35,907 nt of DNA from Methylophilaceae bacterium (GTDB lineage: Bacteria; Pseudomonadota; Gammaproteobacteria; Burkholderiales; Methylophilaceae), in NCBI GenBank assembly GCA_009926205.1, contig RFPI01000013.1:1-35907 (forward strand), in the 5' to 3' direction. Positions 21,796 through 30,494 of the stretch are shown one piece after another; the first letter of the stretch is position 1; the number at the start of each line of letters is the position of its first letter. Under the pieces are notes generated by a model that was given only the letters and a program-made list of their open reading frames with translations, made no database searches and had not been told where the DNA came from. A program made the translations under genes and the position numbers.

Positions 21796-22066
21796 CGTCT
21801 CTACTTTATATATATTTATAAATAAGCAAATTTTTTACATTCGCCAAACTGTTTGGATAAGGACTTTATCAGTTCTTTAGTCAGTGACAGCGTCAGCAAG
21901 TTCATACATAATGAGCGCAGACTATAGCCGCTTCAGGGAAACTTTCCAATAGCAAGCGCTCTAAGCCATGTAATTAAAGCTTTATAGCGTGTCGCGGGCA
22001 AGTTTCAAACTTTTTTTAAGTCGATTTTTATTCGGAACGGCGAACTCAACATTAGTGCCATTAATC

Positions 22067-22096
22067 AAACGCTTGACATCTGTCAGGCGTTTTTTT
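22067..22096 (+). terminator. Terminator-like hairpin upstream of the ABC operon
   Basis: AAACGCTTGACA pairs with TGTCAGGCGTTT through one G-T wobble, and the 3' arm runs into seven Ts (22090-22096). This looks like a strong intrinsic terminator for plus-strand transcription, yet no plus-strand gene precedes it since mutually divergent genes flank the region. It could end a small RNA, attenuate the ABC operon, or act only as DNA, because its 5' arm contains a -35 box. Confidence 0.6.
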
Positions 22097-22101
22097 AATG
22101 T
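22073..22101 (+). promoter_or_regulatory. Candidate promoter of the ABC operon, inside the hairpin
   Basis: A perfect -35 box TTGACA (22073-22078) is followed after 17 bases by TAATGT (22096-22101), which keeps the key T1, A2 and T6 positions of a -10 box. Transcription would start near 22108, giving a leader of about 43 bases with GGAG at 22136-22139 before the ATG at 22151. Confidence 0.5.
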
Positions 22102-22150
22102 GATGCCCCCTCATGACAGGGCAATAATACATCTCGGAGTGAAGTTTTAA

Positions 22151-23095
22151 ATGGCAAAAGAGACAAAAACCAATATGGCTGAAATCACTGTTAGTGCCAA
22201 CCATCTAACCCGGTTATATGGTGGCAGGGCTGCCGTGAGTGATGTGAGCTTCACCCTTAGTAAAGGTGAAGTGTTAGGATTTTTGGGCCCCAATGGTGCG
22301 GGTAAATCTACCACGATGAAAATGTTGACCGGCAACTTGGCCCCTAGCGCTGGTAGTGTGAAAATTTGTGGTATCGACATGATAGAGAATCCCAAAGAAG
22401 CCAAAGCATTGATAGGCTATTTGCCCGAGACTCCGCCGCTTTATCGTGAATTGACAGTGGATGAATTTTTGACGGTCACTGCTAGATTGCATGGAATCTC
22501 CTCTAAGGCCATTAAGTCTGCGGTTGATCGTGCCAAGCAGCGCTGTGGTTTAACTGAAATGAGCAAGCGTCTGATTGAGAATCTTTCTAAAGGTTATCAA
22601 CAACGTGTCGGTATCGCCCAAGCGATTATTCACAATCCTATGGTAGTTATCCTAGATGAACCAACAGTCGGTTTGGATCCGATTCAAATCCGAGATATTC
22701 GTACATTGATTAAAGAGTTGGGTAAAGAACACAGTGTGATTCTCTCTACTCATATTCTTCCAGAAGTTGAAATCGTTTGTGATCATGTACAGATTATTGA
22801 TAAAGGCCAGTTGATATTCAATGGCTCTATTGATCTGTTGAAAAAACAGCGTCAGGGTAATCGTCTATTAATAGGTTTGCGTAATGCACCAACATTAACT
22901 TCACTTGAGAAAATTGCTCAAGTAGAGAAAGCAGAGTCATTAGACAATGGCTTGATTCGCGTTTACTTCACTCCCGGTGAGTCACCTGCAGAAAAAATTG
23001 TCGCAGCAGCGGTGAAAGGTGACTGGGGTTTATTCCAAATTCAACCTGATCAAACATCCTTAGAAGATGTATTTGTTCAGTTGACGCATCAATAA
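22151..23095 (+). CDS. ABC transporter ATP-binding protein, GldA-like
   Basis: This is the ATPase of an ABC-2 type system. The 314-aa product has Walker A GPNGAGKST (46-54), the signature LSKGYQQRVGIAQA (146-159), Walker B VVILDEP (165-171), a D-loop GLDP and the switch histidine H201. The C-terminal 90 residues form the extension common to GldA/NodI/CcmA-type exporters. The ATG at 22151 is used; a second ATG eight codons later (MAEITVS) is possible. It heads a four-gene operon with an ABC-2 permease, a GldG-like protein and a DUF4340 protein. In Bacteroidetes the homologous GldA/F/G set is tied to gliding, but similar sets occur in non-gliding proteobacteria, where the substrate is unknown. 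Confidence 0.9.
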   Translation: MAKETKTNMAEITVSANHLTRLYGGRAAVSDVSFTLSKGEVLGFLGPNGAGKSTTMKMLTGNLAPSAGSVKICGIDMIENPKEAKALIGYLPETPPLYRELTVDEFLTVTARLHGISSKAIKSAVDRAKQRCGLTEMSKRLIENLSKGYQQRVGIAQAIIHNPMVVILDEPTVGLDPIQIRDIRTLIKELGKEHSVILSTHILPEVEIVCDHVQIIDKGQLIFNGSIDLLKKQRQGNRLLIGLRNAPTLTSLEKIAQVEKAESLDNGLIRVYFTPGESPAEKIVAAAVKGDWGLFQIQPDQTSLEDVFVQLTHQ

Positions 23096-23115
23096 TTTTT
23101 CAAGCGAGCATAGAT

Positions 23116-23862
23116 ATGATTTGGCATTTGGCGAGAAAAGAAATTAAAAGTTTATTTGCTTCCCCTATGGGCTGGGTGATTTTGGCTCTATTGCAATTCT
23201 GGTTGGGGCTGAAGTTTTACAGTGGCATCAATAATTATTTCCAAGTGATGTCCGGCATTATTCGTCCTGCGGAACGTATGGGGGTGACCTCTTTTATAGG
23301 ACAAAGTGTATTCGGTGACGCTTCCTTCTTTATGTTGGTGGCGGTTCCTTTGCTATCCATGCGCTTGATTAGTGAAGAGCGTAAGAGCAATACCTTGCCA
23401 TTTTTAATGACTGCACCTATGTCACTGACACAAATCGTGATTGGCAAATTCTTAGGTTTAGTGGCGTTCTTATCCATATTGATTGGCTTTGTACTCATTA
23501 TGTTGTTAACCCTAGGTTTATGGGCCGACATCGATTATGGCTACTTAGTCTCCAATACATTGGGTCTTTGGTTATTGGTGGCCAGCTTCTGTTCTTTGGG
23601 CTTGTACTTTTCTAGCTTGACGGCGCAGCCTGTGGTGGCGGCCATCATCACCTTTATTGCTTTATTTGGCTTGATGATTTTCGATCGTTTCTTTACCGGC
23701 AACGAGGGTAGCATCATGAATTACCTCTCTATGATGCAGCATTTTCAGCCCTTTGCGCGTGGCTTGATTGACACCGCAGATATTGCCTATTTCTTGCTGT
23801 TTATTATTGCTTTTTTAACTTTAACCATACGCCGCCTAGATGCGGATCGTCTGCGCGGATAA
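23116..23862 (+). CDS. ABC-2 type permease, GldF-like
   Basis: The 248-aa product has six predicted membrane segments (about 20-35, 68-84, 106-133, 143-165, 172-190, 220-238). Between the second and third is the ABC-2 coupling region SEERKSNTLPFLMTAPMS (about 86-103), which contacts the ATPase. It starts 20 bases after the ATPase gene stop with a weak ribosome-binding site and ends 10 bases before the GldG-like gene. It is the membrane channel of the system. Substrate cannot be told from sequence. One permease gene is visible, so the transporter would be a homodimer unless the GldG-like partner contributes. Confidence 0.88.
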   Translation: MIWHLARKEIKSLFASPMGWVILALLQFWLGLKFYSGINNYFQVMSGIIRPAERMGVTSFIGQSVFGDASFFMLVAVPLLSMRLISEERKSNTLPFLMTAPMSLTQIVIGKFLGLVAFLSILIGFVLIMLLTLGLWADIDYGYLVSNTLGLWLLVASFCSLGLYFSSLTAQPVVAAIITFIALFGLMIFDRFFTGNEGSIMNYLSMMQHFQPFARGLIDTADIAYFLLFIIAFLTLTIRRLDADRLRG

Positions 23863-23872
23863 AGGTTGCACG

Positions 23873-25279
23873 ATGAAGACTCAACTCAAATTACGTTTAC
23901 AGCTGCTGATGCAAAATAGCTTTTTTGTTATTTTGTTTTTGATATTAATTGGCTTGATTGGCTGGATTACACATCAATACCATGTGGCCACCGATGTCAC
24001 ACAGAGCTCACGCAATATTCTCAGTGAGGGTAGTGTGAATGTCCTCAAACAAATGAAGTCTCCGATCACGATTACAGTGTTTGCCTCGGCAGATAATGCC
24101 TCTCATGGGGAAACTTATCGTAAAGGTGTGAAAGACTTTATCTATCGTTACCAACGCACCAAACCGGACATTAAAGTCGAATTCGTTAGCCCAGCCGAAG
24201 ACCCCAAGCGAACCCAGGAAGCTGGTGTTGTCGCAGAGGGAGAGCTGATTGTCGAGTACGAAAAACGCTCGGAGCATCTGTTGCCACCCTATGCGGAACA
24301 AGAGATGACTAATTTGTTAGTGCGTTTATCACGTACTCGTCAACAGGCGATTATGTATCTGGACGGCCATGGTGAAAGAAATCTGATTGGTAAAAAAGAT
24401 CATGATATCGGAGAGTTTGGTAAACAGCTTGAAGATAAAGGTTTCAAGTTTGCGAATCCAGACTTAGTCAGTGGTAAAAACATTCCAGAGCAAAGCTCTA
24501 TGCTGGTGATTGCTGGCCCGCAAAAAGATCTTTCAGACATCGAAGTAAAGAAAATCAAGGCTTGGTTAGATAGCGGTGGCAATTTACTTTGGATGTTGGA
24601 TGATGATAATTATCGTGGCATGAAGGTCATCGCTGAATACCTAGGATTAAAAGTTTCCAGTGGTGTTGCAGTCGATCCATCTTCATCAAAAGATGGCGTC
24701 AGTGCTAAACATGTATTTAGCTACCAGTATGGCGACCACGCAATTACTCGTAACTTTATGCTTCGCACCTTGTTCCAAGAAGCTCATCAAGTCAATGCGC
24801 AAGGCAATGATGACAACGGTTGGCAAGTATCCAATCTGATTGATGTTGCGGCATCTGGTTGGTTGGAAAATGACCGTAAAGAGTTATCAGGCGATGTTAA
24901 TAAAATTAGCTATGATGCCAAATCCGACGTTTCAGGACCGATCAATATTGCCGTTGCTCTTGAGCGCAAATATGGCAAAAAGGGTCAGCGTGTGGTTGTC
25001 ATCGGTAACGCTAATTTCTTGTCGAATACCTTTGTGGCTACCCAAGGTAACTTAGACTTGGGCGTGAATATTGTGAACTGGCTTGCAGGGGATGATTCTT
25101 TAATTACGATTCAACCAAAACCTCTGAAAGATGCCAATGTGAATATCAAACCAGGTATTCTGACATGGCTGATTTTCTTGCCTATCTTTGATAAACCTCT
25201 AGGTTTATTTATGGTGGTGATTCCTTTGGCATTGTTGGTATCCGGTATTTTACTTTGGTTGAAACGCCGCAAAGCCTAA
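23873..25279 (+). CDS. GldG-like ABC-associated membrane protein
   Basis: The 468-aa product has an N-terminal membrane anchor (about 16-33) and a long extracytoplasmic domain. This opens with the family-typical DVTQSSRNILSEGSVNVLK, followed by ITVFASAD and later YLDGHGER near residue 163. A C-terminal membrane helix (about 438-460) is followed by a KRRK tail. The domain matches the ABC-type uncharacterised transport auxiliary family (related to GldG and to IFT52). The start at 23873 was chosen because AAAGG lies eight bases before it; a longer frame to 23840 runs inside the permease gene. It probably forms the periplasmic part of the complex with the permease. Confidence 0.87.
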   Translation: MKTQLKLRLQLLMQNSFFVILFLILIGLIGWITHQYHVATDVTQSSRNILSEGSVNVLKQMKSPITITVFASADNASHGETYRKGVKDFIYRYQRTKPDIKVEFVSPAEDPKRTQEAGVVAEGELIVEYEKRSEHLLPPYAEQEMTNLLVRLSRTRQQAIMYLDGHGERNLIGKKDHDIGEFGKQLEDKGFKFANPDLVSGKNIPEQSSMLVIAGPQKDLSDIEVKKIKAWLDSGGNLLWMLDDDNYRGMKVIAEYLGLKVSSGVAVDPSSSKDGVSAKHVFSYQYGDHAITRNFMLRTLFQEAHQVNAQGNDDNGWQVSNLIDVAASGWLENDRKELSGDVNKISYDAKSDVSGPINIAVALERKYGKKGQRVVVIGNANFLSNTFVATQGNLDLGVNIVNWLAGDDSLITIQPKPLKDANVNIKPGILTWLIFLPIFDKPLGLFMVVIPLALLVSGILLWLKRRKA

Positions 25280-25314
25280 TGGATTGATAGCAATAAATGG
25301 AGTGAGATGCTGAA

Positions 25315-26217
25315 ATGAAGTCGCGCTGGATTTTAAATTTTGTATTGTTATTGGTGGTGCTGATTGTCGGTGCTGTGGTGTATTTTAGCCCCAAACAATC
25401 ACAACAGCAGGTACAGGATTATGAGGTCTCTTCGTTAAGGTTGGCGGATATGAATGCCATCAGCATTGAGTTTCCAGCCCAAGCCTCATTGAAGTTTGAG
25501 AAGCGTGATGGCTTTTGGTACTTGCAACAACCTTATGCTGCGCGTGCTGACCAACAATTGGTAGGCAGATTGATGTCGATTGTGGCAGCTCGCAGCAAAC
25601 AAAAATTCCCTGCAGATGATGCCGCTAAGTTTGGCTTGGACCAACCTAAGTTGGTATTGCGTTTAAATGATGCGGTGTTTACTTTTGGTACCTACAACAC
25701 AGTCAGCCAAGAGCAATATGTTGCATACAATGGCTCGGTGTTTATGTTGCCCACCATCTATGCCGAAAATGCACAAATCCAAGTGACTGAGTTTCTAGAT
25801 AAGAACTTGTTCCGACCTACTGAGAAGGTTGCTGGTTTTGATTTTGGGCATTTGGAGCAGTGGCAAGGGACTAAATTAAATGTAGATTTAGTGGATGGTA
25901 GCTGGAAAGTTTCTTTGCCCAAGGCACAGGCAAAACAGTCAGAAATGCAAGAGTGGTTTGATGGGTTTTGGCGCAATATTGCAGCCCCTCGTGTTGAGCC
26001 TGACAAAATTGATAAACGCATGAACTATCCCTATTTCGATGTCAAAATGCAAGGCGGTAGCAAAGTGCGCTTTTATAAAGTGCAAGAGTCACCAGAGTTG
26101 TTGATTTATCGCGACGATGAGGGCTTGTTATACCATTTGCCTTCAGACCTTGGTTTTACCTTATTAAACCCACCAGTCAATTTGCCTGACGATAAAAAGT
26201 CCGCTGGCGCAAAATAA
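25315..26217 (+). CDS. DUF4340 domain protein, membrane-anchored
   Basis: The 300-aa product has a short cytoplasmic N-terminus, one membrane segment (about 7-24), then an extracytoplasmic region rich in beta structure with repeated motifs of the kind FEKRDGFWYL and KFGLDQPKLVLRL that mark DUF4340. The C-terminus is polar (DDKKSAGAK). DUF4340 genes usually follow gldG-like genes, as here after a 35-base gap, so it is likely an accessory subunit of the ABC system. No catalytic residues can be named. mutM follows after 27 bases and may be co-transcribed. Confidence 0.85.
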   Translation: MKSRWILNFVLLLVVLIVGAVVYFSPKQSQQQVQDYEVSSLRLADMNAISIEFPAQASLKFEKRDGFWYLQQPYAARADQQLVGRLMSIVAARSKQKFPADDAAKFGLDQPKLVLRLNDAVFTFGTYNTVSQEQYVAYNGSVFMLPTIYAENAQIQVTEFLDKNLFRPTEKVAGFDFGHLEQWQGTKLNVDLVDGSWKVSLPKAQAKQSEMQEWFDGFWRNIAAPRVEPDKIDKRMNYPYFDVKMQGGSKVRFYKVQESPELLIYRDDEGLLYHLPSDLGFTLLNPPVNLPDDKKSAGAK

Positions 26218-26244: not shown

Positions 26245-27099
26245 TTGCCCGAACTACCCGAAGTTGAGATTAGCAAGCGAGGTCTAGAGCCCTTGCTTGG
26301 CGCCACTATCGCGCAAGTGAATATCCATTTCCCTACCTTGCGCTGGCCTATTCCTCCAGAGCTCAGCAGCGTATTGCCGCAGGCTCAGGTCGCAACATTA
26401 TCCCGCCGTGCAAAATATATTTTGGTAGCGTTTCGCAATCAACAAGGTCATTTAGGCACGATGCTATTGCACTTGGGGATGTCGGGTAGATTATGTTTGT
26501 TACCAGCGCAAGAGCCTAGGGCTAAGCATGACCATATCGAGTGGTTATTTACCGATGGAAGAATACTGCGCTTACGTGACCCGCGTCGATTTGGCGCAGT
26601 GCTATGGATTCCTGCAGATAATGAGCAAGCCCAATTGCAGGCCTTACAGCAACATCCTTTACTAAAATCTTTAGGACCAGAGCCCTTGTTGGCAGACTTC
26701 GACGCTGAATACTTATACCGCAGTACGCGAGGTAAAACTGCTGCAATTAAATTGGTCATTATGGACAGCCATATGGTGGTGGGGGTGGGGAATATATATG
26801 CCAGTGAAAGTTTGTTTAGGTCTGGCATACACCCGCAAAAACCGGCTGGAAAACTAAGCAAAACGCAATGTGCTAGATTGGTAGAGGAAATTAAATCCAC
26901 ATTGGCCGAGGCGATACAGGCGGGTGGAAGTAGTTTGCGTGATTTTTTTGGTGCGGATGGCAACCCCGGCTATTTTCAACAGCACTACTTCGTTTATGCG
27001 CGACCAGGTTTGGCATGCGAGAGATGCCAAAGCGTTATCCGACAAATCAAACAGGGACAGCGCTCAACCTTTTTCTGTCCCAAATGTCAGCGCAAATAG
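26245..27099 (+). CDS. mutM: Formamidopyrimidine-DNA glycosylase
   Basis: MutM (Fpg) removes 8-oxoguanine and formamidopyrimidines from DNA and cleaves the abasic site. The mature N-terminus must be PELPEVE, with the catalytic Pro2 and Glu3. This fixes the start at the TTG codon 26245, with AGGA about nine bases upstream. Other features are LLHLGMSGRL, the conserved lysine in RRAKYILVAF, and the C-terminal zinc finger CERC-x16-CPKC (VYARPGLACERCQ, STFFCPKCQRK). The length of 284 aa is slightly above the usual 270. It is transcribed with or just after the ABC operon and converges on the symporter gene across 19 bases. Confidence 0.97.
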   Translation: MPELPEVEISKRGLEPLLGATIAQVNIHFPTLRWPIPPELSSVLPQAQVATLSRRAKYILVAFRNQQGHLGTMLLHLGMSGRLCLLPAQEPRAKHDHIEWLFTDGRILRLRDPRRFGAVLWIPADNEQAQLQALQQHPLLKSLGPEPLLADFDAEYLYRSTRGKTAAIKLVIMDSHMVVGVGNIYASESLFRSGIHPQKPAGKLSKTQCARLVEEIKSTLAEAIQAGGSSLRDFFGADGNPGYFQQHYFVYARPGLACERCQSVIRQIKQGQRSTFFCPKCQRK

Positions 27100-28820: not shown

Positions 28821-28865
28821 GAGCCTATTGACCAAACATAACAATAAATGCACTCGAGGCGATAT

Positions 28866-30494
28866 ATGCGAAATCCATCTCTATTGCAAAATGCAAAGCC
28901 GCAGACTTCTGTGCGCTCAAATCAATCCATCAATATCCCCGCTTTATTTCAACAGGCAACACACTGGCATCAGCAGGGAGATCTGAATAAAGCCGAGCAA
29001 CTGTATCTGCAATTAGTGGCGCGCAAACCACATCACTTTGACGCCTTACATCATCTTTGTATGATTGCACTGCAGAAAAAAGAGTTGTCACAAGCCTTAA
29101 ATTGGATAGACCGCGCGCTTATAGAAAATCCCCTGCATGCCCTTGCCCATGCCAATCGCGGCATCGTGTTACATCATTTACAGCGTTATGCTGAAGCGGT
29201 GCGAAGCTACGACCTTGCAATACGCTTACATCCTCAGTATGCTCAAGCATATTGCAACCGCGGTATAGCATTGCGTGAATTAGGCAGTGTCGATTTGGCT
29301 ATTAGCAGTTACGACCAAGCCATCGCACTAAAACCTGACTATGCAGAAGCCTATGCTAATCGTGGCAATGCTTATTTAAAATTAAATGCGTTGGAGCAGG
29401 CTCTTCAGGATGCCAGTCGTGCCATCCAACTCAAGCCAAAGATGGCGCAATACTATTGCAACCGGAGTGTCATTTGGCATGCCATGCAGCAATTCACGGA
29501 GTCCTTGCAAGATGTCAATTATGCGATTCAGTTGCAGCCAGATAATGCTTTGGCTTATTGGAATCGCTCTAATATTTATTTGCTGCATGGGCAATTTGAT
29601 TTGGGTTGGCAAGATTATGAGTGGCGTTTGCTGCTTGAGCATTATCCGGCGACATGTTTCACAGCACCACGCTGGCGTGGTACGCAGTCGCTGCAGGGAA
29701 AATCCATCTTGCTGTATGCCGAGCAAGGCTTGGGCGACACCCTGCAATTTTGCCGTTATGTCCCATTGGTCGCGGAATTAGGTGCCAAAGTTTACTTGCA
29801 AGTGCAGCCAAGTTTGCGGGCTTTATTACAAACCTTGCCTGGCGTACATCGATGGGTTGATGAAGGTGTTGATACCAGCCAGATGGACTATCAATGCGCT
29901 TTGATGTCACTGCCTATGGCATTTAAAACCAATCTGCAAAGTATCCCTAGCCCCCGTCATTATTTATCTAGCAGCCACGAATATAGGCAGTTATGGCGCA
30001 AAAAATTAGCTAGCAGTGATCGTCTGCGCGTTGGCATCGTATGCAGCGGAAGCCCAAGCCATGCAAATGACAATCAGCGATCTATTCCCTTACAGATATT
30101 GCTAGATGCCTTACCTAAGAATATGCAATTGATCAGCTTGCAAAATAATATACGTCACTCCGATAGTGCTGCGCTTAAAGCAGGAAGAGTCAAATATTTT
30201 GGTCAAGAAATACATGACTTCAGAGATACGGCGGCTTTGTGCGATTTGGTCGATGTCGTGTTGACCGTTGATACTAGTGTGGCGCATTTGGCTGGCGCCA
30301 TGGGCAGGCCTACTTGCCTGTTATTACCTTTCTGCCCAGATTGGCGCTGGTTATTACACAGAACAGATAGCCCTTGGTATCACTCAATAAAAATATATAG
30401 ACAGAAAAAGCAAAATTGTTGGCACGAAATTTTGACTGAGTTGTCTCAAGATTTACTGAGCAAATTGGATCATTTCAGCCAACAAGCAAGCTAG
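28866..30494 (+). CDS. TPR protein with glycosyltransferase-like C-terminal domain
   Basis: The 542-aa product has about seven tetratricopeptide repeats over residues 25-245 (for example AEAYANRGNAYLKLNALEQAL). A C-terminal domain of about 290 residues follows, of the type seen in GT9/GT41-like TPR proteins, with LYAEQGLGDTLQFCRYVP near residue 290 and a nucleotide-sugar-binding-like VDTSVAHLAGAMGRPTCLLLP near residue 475. There is no signal peptide or membrane segment, so it is cytoplasmic. The start at 28866 has GAGG six bases upstream; an ATG at 28848 lacks this. It stands alone between the symporter and the SCO gene, so its acceptor is unknown. It could glycosylate a protein or surface structure. 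Confidence 0.85.
   Translation: MRNPSLLQNAKPQTSVRSNQSINIPALFQQATHWHQQGDLNKAEQLYLQLVARKPHHFDALHHLCMIALQKKELSQALNWIDRALIENPLHALAHANRGIVLHHLQRYAEAVRSYDLAIRLHPQYAQAYCNRGIALRELGSVDLAISSYDQAIALKPDYAEAYANRGNAYLKLNALEQALQDASRAIQLKPKMAQYYCNRSVIWHAMQQFTESLQDVNYAIQLQPDNALAYWNRSNIYLLHGQFDLGWQDYEWRLLLEHYPATCFTAPRWRGTQSLQGKSILLYAEQGLGDTLQFCRYVPLVAELGAKVYLQVQPSLRALLQTLPGVHRWVDEGVDTSQMDYQCALMSLPMAFKTNLQSIPSPRHYLSSSHEYRQLWRKKLASSDRLRVGIVCSGSPSHANDNQRSIPLQILLDALPKNMQLISLQNNIRHSDSAALKAGRVKYFGQEIHDFRDTAALCDLVDVVLTVDTSVAHLAGAMGRPTCLLLPFCPDWRWLLHRTDSPWYHSIKIYRQKKQNCWHEILTELSQDLLSKLDHFSQQAS

Follow-up and report, generated by a model that had tools for sequence, protein, structure and literature searches.

In the window (the whole stretch of DNA analyzed, a single complete contig of 35,907 bases from a genome of 1.5 Mb that is 96% complete), we identified a conserved operon that belongs to a known, uncharacterized transporter family and constitutes a variant of it with a conserved DNA-repair gene. 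Its core comprises four genes, whose identities had been proposed for positions 22151–26217 in an earlier note on this DNA and are confirmed by their open frames and Pfam matches. The same note described a four-gene operon, a count that has to be extended, since mutM is a conserved fifth member in Gammaproteobacteria (used throughout in the GTDB sense). The five genes are as follows.

22151..23095, + strand: GldA/DrrA-like ABC ATPase, 314 aa, with intact nucleotide-binding motifs
23116..23862, + strand: GldF-like ABC-2 permease, 248 aa, with about six membrane spans by hydropathy peaks
23873..25279, + strand: GldG-like subunit, 468 aa, with PF09822 and DUF7088 domains and two membrane helices
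25315..26217, + strand: DUF4340 protein, 300 aa, with one N-terminal membrane helix (residues 3–24)
26245..27099, + strand: mutM/fpg, formamidopyrimidine-DNA glycosylase, 284 aa, the fifth gene

The ATPase matched ABC_tran in Pfam (1.5e-32), and its Walker A, signature, Walker B, and H-loop motifs are all intact. The permease exceeded the Pfam cut-off for PF12679 (ABC2_membrane_2, 5.2e-15) and had no PDB sequence match at E <= 1. For the GldG-like subunit, hereafter GldG, Pfam reported ABC_transp_aux (PF09822, 4.8e-21) and DUF7088 (5.2e-13); its open frame covers 23840–25279 (479 aa), and the inner start at 23873, giving 468 aa, better fits the N-termini of its homologues. With this start, the four core genes, all on the + strand, are separated by gaps of 10 to 35 bases. 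The fourth protein matched PF14238 (1.3e-15, 58.5 bits against a Pfam cut-off of 25). MutM, encoded from 27 bases past the DUF4340 stop, scored 343.1 bits against the NF002211 cut-off of 212 and carries three Pfam domains, including the zinc finger PF06827. The presence of an ATPase, an ABC-2 permease, and a PF09822 subunit in a single cluster places the operon in the GldAFG-like ABC family. The genome has one DUF4340 match and one PF09822 match; its GldG protein is 66–71% identical to those of Methylophilaceae relatives, including Ca. Methylopumilus, which makes this family the most likely one for the host, and a tblastn search with DUF4340 against plasmids returned no match.

The closest named counterpart is the GldA-GldF-GldG system of Bacteroidetes, which serves gliding and supports type 9 secretion; its ATPase, permease, and GldG are homologous to those of the window and share the permease-then-GldG order. 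However, the window's subunits all score under the curated NCBIfam cut-offs (ATPase, 313.9 bits against 402.6 for TIGR03522, GldA; permease, 110.2 against 288.5 for TIGR03518, GldF; GldG, 62.3 against 389.85 for the GldG equivalog), so that a gliding role is not to be read from the names, and the unit adds DUF4340 and mutM. To our knowledge, the classical gldAFG set comes without DUF4340. A gliding or surface-motility system would account for the family similarity to GldA, GldF, and GldG, and excerpts of the genome paper of Thiothrix nivea, a filamentous gliding gammaproteobacterium, tie that organism's own three similar genes to gliding by analogy. Against this stand the three scores under the equivalog cut-offs and the occurrence of the system in about half to two thirds of our broad class sample; we consider the idea barely credible and rejected gliding as the function for want of support. 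By the tests made, the operon is not a gliding system. As to the remark in the earlier note that the region has no gliding gene, the GldL model TIGR03513 had no match in the window's genome and none in any control genome either, so this result does not demonstrate absence.

The grouping of the core genes is widely conserved. We searched the profiles PF14238, PF09822, and PF01149 in the same 140 Gammaproteobacteria genomes, taken from different families, and found DUF4340 in 70, GldG in 96, and mutM in 127 of them. All 70 genomes bearing DUF4340 also carry GldG, and 80 of the 81 DUF4340 matches have a GldG match no more than 3 kb upstream on their own strand; the grouping is thus not due to chance, and the four genes are co-conserved. 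With custom profiles, the order ATPase, permease, GldG, DUF4340, mutM recurs across the fetched loci. Of the class families sampled, about half to two thirds contain GldG/DUF4340 transporters. Within the window's own family, the operon was kept in 22 of 24 other genomes, including genomes of 1.3 and 1.4 Mb, and such retention argues for a basic envelope role. PF09822 is absent from 44 of the 140 class genomes, indicating that the system is dispensable for many lineages.

The window's operon is an ordinary member of the ABC_transp_aux (PF09822)/DUF4340 (PF14238) transporters found across bacteria, an example being P. aeruginosa PA4040. These nevertheless fall into three size classes within Gammaproteobacteria, of which the window's class alone is linked to mutM. 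We split the GldG matches by frame length and rank, with boundaries of our own setting, into class A (the window's, ~450–500 aa), class B (~630 aa), and class C (mostly >=960 aa, with the permease fused). Of the 83 class-A loci, two are weak matches (G052:C3 on the + strand, and G060:C19) and one is a likely foreign copy (G103:C11). In class C, permease and GldG similarity are found in one open frame of 913 to 1170 aa, and these natural fusions make it very likely that GldG is an obligate partner of the permease. Three class-A loci (L185, L186, L188) have a GldG frame of 688–722 aa with neither a separate permease nor DUF4340, probably representing an independent permease-GldG fusion as judged from frame length and content. 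At L210 and L211, in two genomes, GldG is broken across two frames, which may reflect decay of the system or an assembly error. The second GldG copy at L209 (G103:C11) clusters with out-of-class sequences in a quick tree and is possibly a transfer.

Outside the class, in the same phylum, 18 loci in 17 genomes carry ATPase-permease-GldG, 17 of them with DUF4340. The Pfam profile overlooks many DUF4340 proteins: among 20 fetched loci lacking a Pfam match, a custom profile detected DUF4340 beside GldG in 15, one of these matches being weak and partial. Of 89 in-class loci placed in a GldG tree, 63 have both DUF4340 and mutM, 11 DUF4340 only, 12 mutM only, and 3 neither, the last label being wrong for L191, where mutM overlaps the GldG end and went uncounted; at L139 and L187, ~1 kb separates GldG from mutM and may hide a diverged DUF4340. 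DUF4340 is therefore missing at 15 of the 89 loci and not always needed. On this tree, built by a quick method that leaves 45 of 104 inner branches open, the fewest changes are 10 for DUF4340 and 14 for mutM, rough figures given the weak branch support. At 11 loci, mutM directly follows GldG at a distance of 197–310 counted from where the GldG match stops, too little to accommodate DUF4340. Together with the changes on the tree, these loci indicate that DUF4340 is replaceable and that mutM can outlast it.

The GldG model, built from 74 sequences (pLDDT 91.3, pTM 0.83), consists of an N-terminal helix (residues 2–35), a thioredoxin-like domain (~55–153), a GIFT domain (~155–411), and a C-terminal helix (445–467). 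By VIA-align, the GIFT domain aligns with IFT52 (Z 23.0, rmsd 2.6, 217 aligned) and OST48 (Z 20.5, rmsd 3.3, 231 aligned), and GldG scores Z ~15 with ThuA-like proteins and Z ~13 with glutamine amidotransferases. A sequence profile likewise recovered IFT52 (7.7e-7), as well as a protein disulfide oxidoreductase (4e-4), and Pfam assigned the GIFT family PF23355 (5.5e-9); the GIFT fold is thus accompanied by similarity to IFT52. Unlike the IFT52 and OST48/Wbp1 GIFT proteins, which share the fold of residues ~155–411, GldG combines it with two membrane helices and a thioredoxin-like domain and is tied to an ABC pump. A CxxC motif occurs in 0 of 74 alignment rows of the thioredoxin-like region, and the window's GldG contains no cysteine at all, so this part is not a redox enzyme and a catalytic thioredoxin is ruled out. 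The GIFT domain opens with a GHGER loop conserved in nearly every row (E168 in 74 of 74, G165 in 73, H166 in 72, G167 in 70, R169 in 69), which is a candidate binding site. Sugar binding has been proposed for GIFT domains in a review available in excerpt, and partial accounts of the solved OST48 and IFT52 structures describe their GIFT domains as scaffolds.

The DUF4340 model, built from 65 sequences (pLDDT 95.6, pTM 0.84), shows a membrane helix and two similar alpha/beta units. None of its 692 listed Foldseek matches against the PDB reached E <=0.001, the best VIA-align match (Z 3.1, rmsd 3.0, 49 aligned) points to no solved relative, BFVD gave 0 matches at E 0.001, and a profile search against PDB sequences returned only PezT at E 0.1; these results do not prove a new fold. 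The two halves align to each other by hhalign at E 4e-4 to 6e-4 with a probability of only 29–35%, making an internal repeat suggestive.

The preferred reading, to which we assign a probability of roughly 40%, is that the operon encodes an inner-membrane ABC-2 exporter or flippase with GldG and DUF4340 as its periplasmic part. The pump would be built from two copies each of the ATPase and the permease, a dimer stoichiometry that we infer. GldG, anchored by its two membrane helices, would be an integral periplasmic subunit whose non-catalytic thioredoxin-like and GIFT domains act as scaffold or receptor, and DUF4340, anchored by one helix, a second, replaceable periplasmic module. ATP hydrolysis would carry an amphipathic envelope molecule, such as a lipid or glycolipid, across to the periplasmic face, and GldG and DUF4340 would receive or relay it there. 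The placement of the permease in ABC-2 families and the intact ATPase motifs point to such a pump. Characterized members of the ABC-2 family are exporters or flippases, and it is from this class that the direction of transport and the kind of substrate are predicted. ABC-2 exporters that carry large outer domains (ABCA type, DrrAB, and Wzm-Wzt) have the permease class and the DrrA-like ATPase in common with the window's system, whose outer domains are, in contrast, separate subunits of an unrelated fold.

The earlier note had favored a mechanical or envelope-remodelling role rather than export, for which we found no positive support. In its explicit form, this would be a mechanotransmission or regulatory machine resembling FtsEX or MacB, in which ATP hydrolysis sets GldG and DUF4340 in motion to act on a partner in the periplasm or outer membrane, with nothing being transported. 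Two large periplasmic subunits would suit such a machine, and the scaffold role of GIFT domains in the solved OST48 and IFT52 structures, as far as our excerpts describe it, leaves a non-transport role open. However, the permease falls in ABC-2 families, from which the FtsX/MacB type is distinct, and no partner was found; we consider this alternative a serious rival, though less likely than export.

Published information on the proteobacterial system is sparse. Neither a function for the operon nor a paper linking mutM to the transporter was found in the open-licence PMC literature (subscription journals and preprints not covered), in agreement with the previous description of a known family with no established substrate. 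In the portions of the literature available to us, DUF4340 is named in two papers, one using P. aeruginosa PA4040 (DUF4340) as a map point and the other reporting the DUF4340 domain of Verrucomicrobium spinosum VSP_RS39600 as essential by transposon sequencing; PA4037 and PA4039 are listed solely in tables of mutations.

The window's variant is linked to mutM, which is found no more than 5 kb downstream, on the strand of the operon, at 67 of 83 class-A loci and at 0 of 41 class B or C loci in the 140 genomes; the first count is a lower bound, because several of the 16 loci lacking mutM sit at contig ends (e.g., G073 and G044). The gene itself is present in 79 of 80 genomes with class A and 48 of 60 without, a difference that genome reduction may explain in part. 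Counting the window and 21 further loci of its own family, mutM starts no more than 36 bases past the DUF4340 stop in 19 of 22. In 41 loci from other families, the gap is at most 55 bases in 31, with overlap in nine, and exceeds 1 kb in seven, where one or more other genes intervene. The short spacing is operon-like, and in Gammaproteobacteria the same transcript very probably also makes MutM, as far as gene arrangement can tell. A mutM profile matched at 0 of the 18 out-of-class loci, one of which (L177) lies on a contig that ends too early to judge, and scanning the genes downstream of the out-of-class operons by eye revealed none recognized as repair genes. The four-gene core is thus the wider unit, and mutM belongs to the class.

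The mutM linkage is probably no more than frozen gene order and uninformative about the pump: the core occurs without mutM outside the class, 16 of 83 class-A loci have no mutM within 5 kb downstream, and in other bacteria mutM resides in mixed operons. Yet the linkage holds in 67 of 83 loci across different families, the gap stays within 55 bases in 31 of 41 loci outside the window's own family, and mutM follows GldG at 11 loci where DUF4340 has gone, although all of this may still be inertia. A distant alternative is that the transporter and MutM form one functional unit, an envelope system answering oxidative or aldehyde damage. The pump would export or clear a damaged envelope molecule (or a released damaged base) while MutM repairs the DNA, with the operon's own regulator acting at the conserved element near the -35 and DUF4340 as an auxiliary module in the periplasm whose fold has yet to be solved. 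Export of damaged bases as the function in itself was set aside and survives only inside this scenario. In Flavobacteriia, gldG precedes dnaN, and gldD is a neighbor of mutY and ssb, according to the portion of PMC5682007 available to us, placing gld genes beside replication and oxidized-base repair genes in a second phylum; under the functional-unit reading, these neighborhoods would be another sign of that tie. Were the mutM tie functional, it would link envelope transport to the repair of oxidized DNA. The conserved pairing of pump and mutM, which spans dozens of bacterial families, is a first handle on the possible role of the pump. Together, the mutM tie, the GIFT fold in common with the eukaryotic IFT52 and OST48, and the retention in small genomes make the question of the Gld-type ABC substrate testable in non-gliding bacteria, and the five-gene unit with its GIFT and DUF4340 folds makes the function testable.

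Upstream of the ATPase, between it and the divergent TPR gene, the window contains two operon-specific conserved blocks (21884–22101), possibly an operator, an attenuator, or a small-RNA terminator.

22073..22101, + strand: promoter-like TTGACA-17-TAATGT, with an inverted repeat (22067–22092) over the -35 and spacer
21884..21912, + strand: a further promoter-like block, GTGACA...CAAGTTCATACATAAT, between the divergent genes, which may act in either direction

The block CGCTTGACAnnnGTCAGGCGTTTT, with a perfect -35 hexamer, 17 bases, and a -10-like hexamer, is found at 12 of 21 family loci under the rule TTGAC[A/T]-17-TAAnnT (or ATAAGT), and at 13 of 21 if TACTTT of L093 is admitted; 500 mononucleotide shuffles gave a mean of 0.03 and a largest count of 2. 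From its sequence, the element at 22073..22101 is a candidate promoter and operator of the operon, or a candidate intrinsic terminator, as 22067–22092 forms a terminator-like hairpin. We prefer the promoter, because the element holds at the 12 loci, including those where the inverted repeat is lost (L089, L096, L104), although the block may be a terminator instead. The CGCTTGACAnnnGTCAGGCGTTTT pattern, allowing up to 2 mismatches, had 9 matches in 26 genomes, 7 of them directly at this operon and two weaker ones elsewhere (G172:C6 and G149:C50); the reversed control had no match in the same genomes, and of the 16 searched genomes belonging to the window's own family, 7 match. The block GTGACA-n7-CAAGTTCATCCATAAT had one match each in 10 of the 26 genomes, all upstream of the operon by coordinates. 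In the smallest genomes (L105, L106), the first block was not found by the element rule. A small RNA in the divergent intergenic region is no more than a possibility: the + strand of 21915–22105 folds with z -2.40 (5 of 200 shuffles as good), partly due to the hairpin at 22067–22092, and a - strand stretch with z -0.15. No Rfam family reached its gathering score there, with weak, chance-level matches only.

Both in the window and in its taxonomic order, TPR-lolB-ispE is the divergent neighbor of the operon. This neighborhood lends itself to a role in handling lipoproteins of the outer membrane or proteins at the cell surface, as in F. johnsoniae, in which, according to excerpts of a review, GldJ and GldK levels are lowered in GldA mutants and GldK depends on GldF for its stability, such that loss of GldA or GldF destabilizes GldJ and/or GldK. 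Among the loci examined, however, lolB adjoins the operon only in the window's order, the divergent neighbors elsewhere including hydantoinase/oxoprolinase and fatty-acid desaturase genes. Outer-membrane lipoproteins in Proteobacteria are, moreover, handled by the Lol system, and a lipoprotein role thus appears improbable.

In three other families, the hydantoinase/oxoprolinase genes precede the operon in divergent orientation (L117:2752-4755, L121:2037-4031, and L124:2131-4065, all on the - strand). Other families have fatty-acid desaturases close to the operon or to its mutM (L117:1457-2635 and L124:909-2087 on the - strand, L082:11743-12951 and L110:12944-14131 on the + strand), and in 4 of 4 tested, a C-terminal stretch matches the transposase family DDE_Tnp_ISL3, reflecting either an odd fusion or a mislabelled Pfam family. 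Finally, window positions 28848–30494 encode a 548-aa protein rich in TPR repeats whose C-terminal part weakly matches heptosyltransferase I, which makes it a possible sugar transferase.
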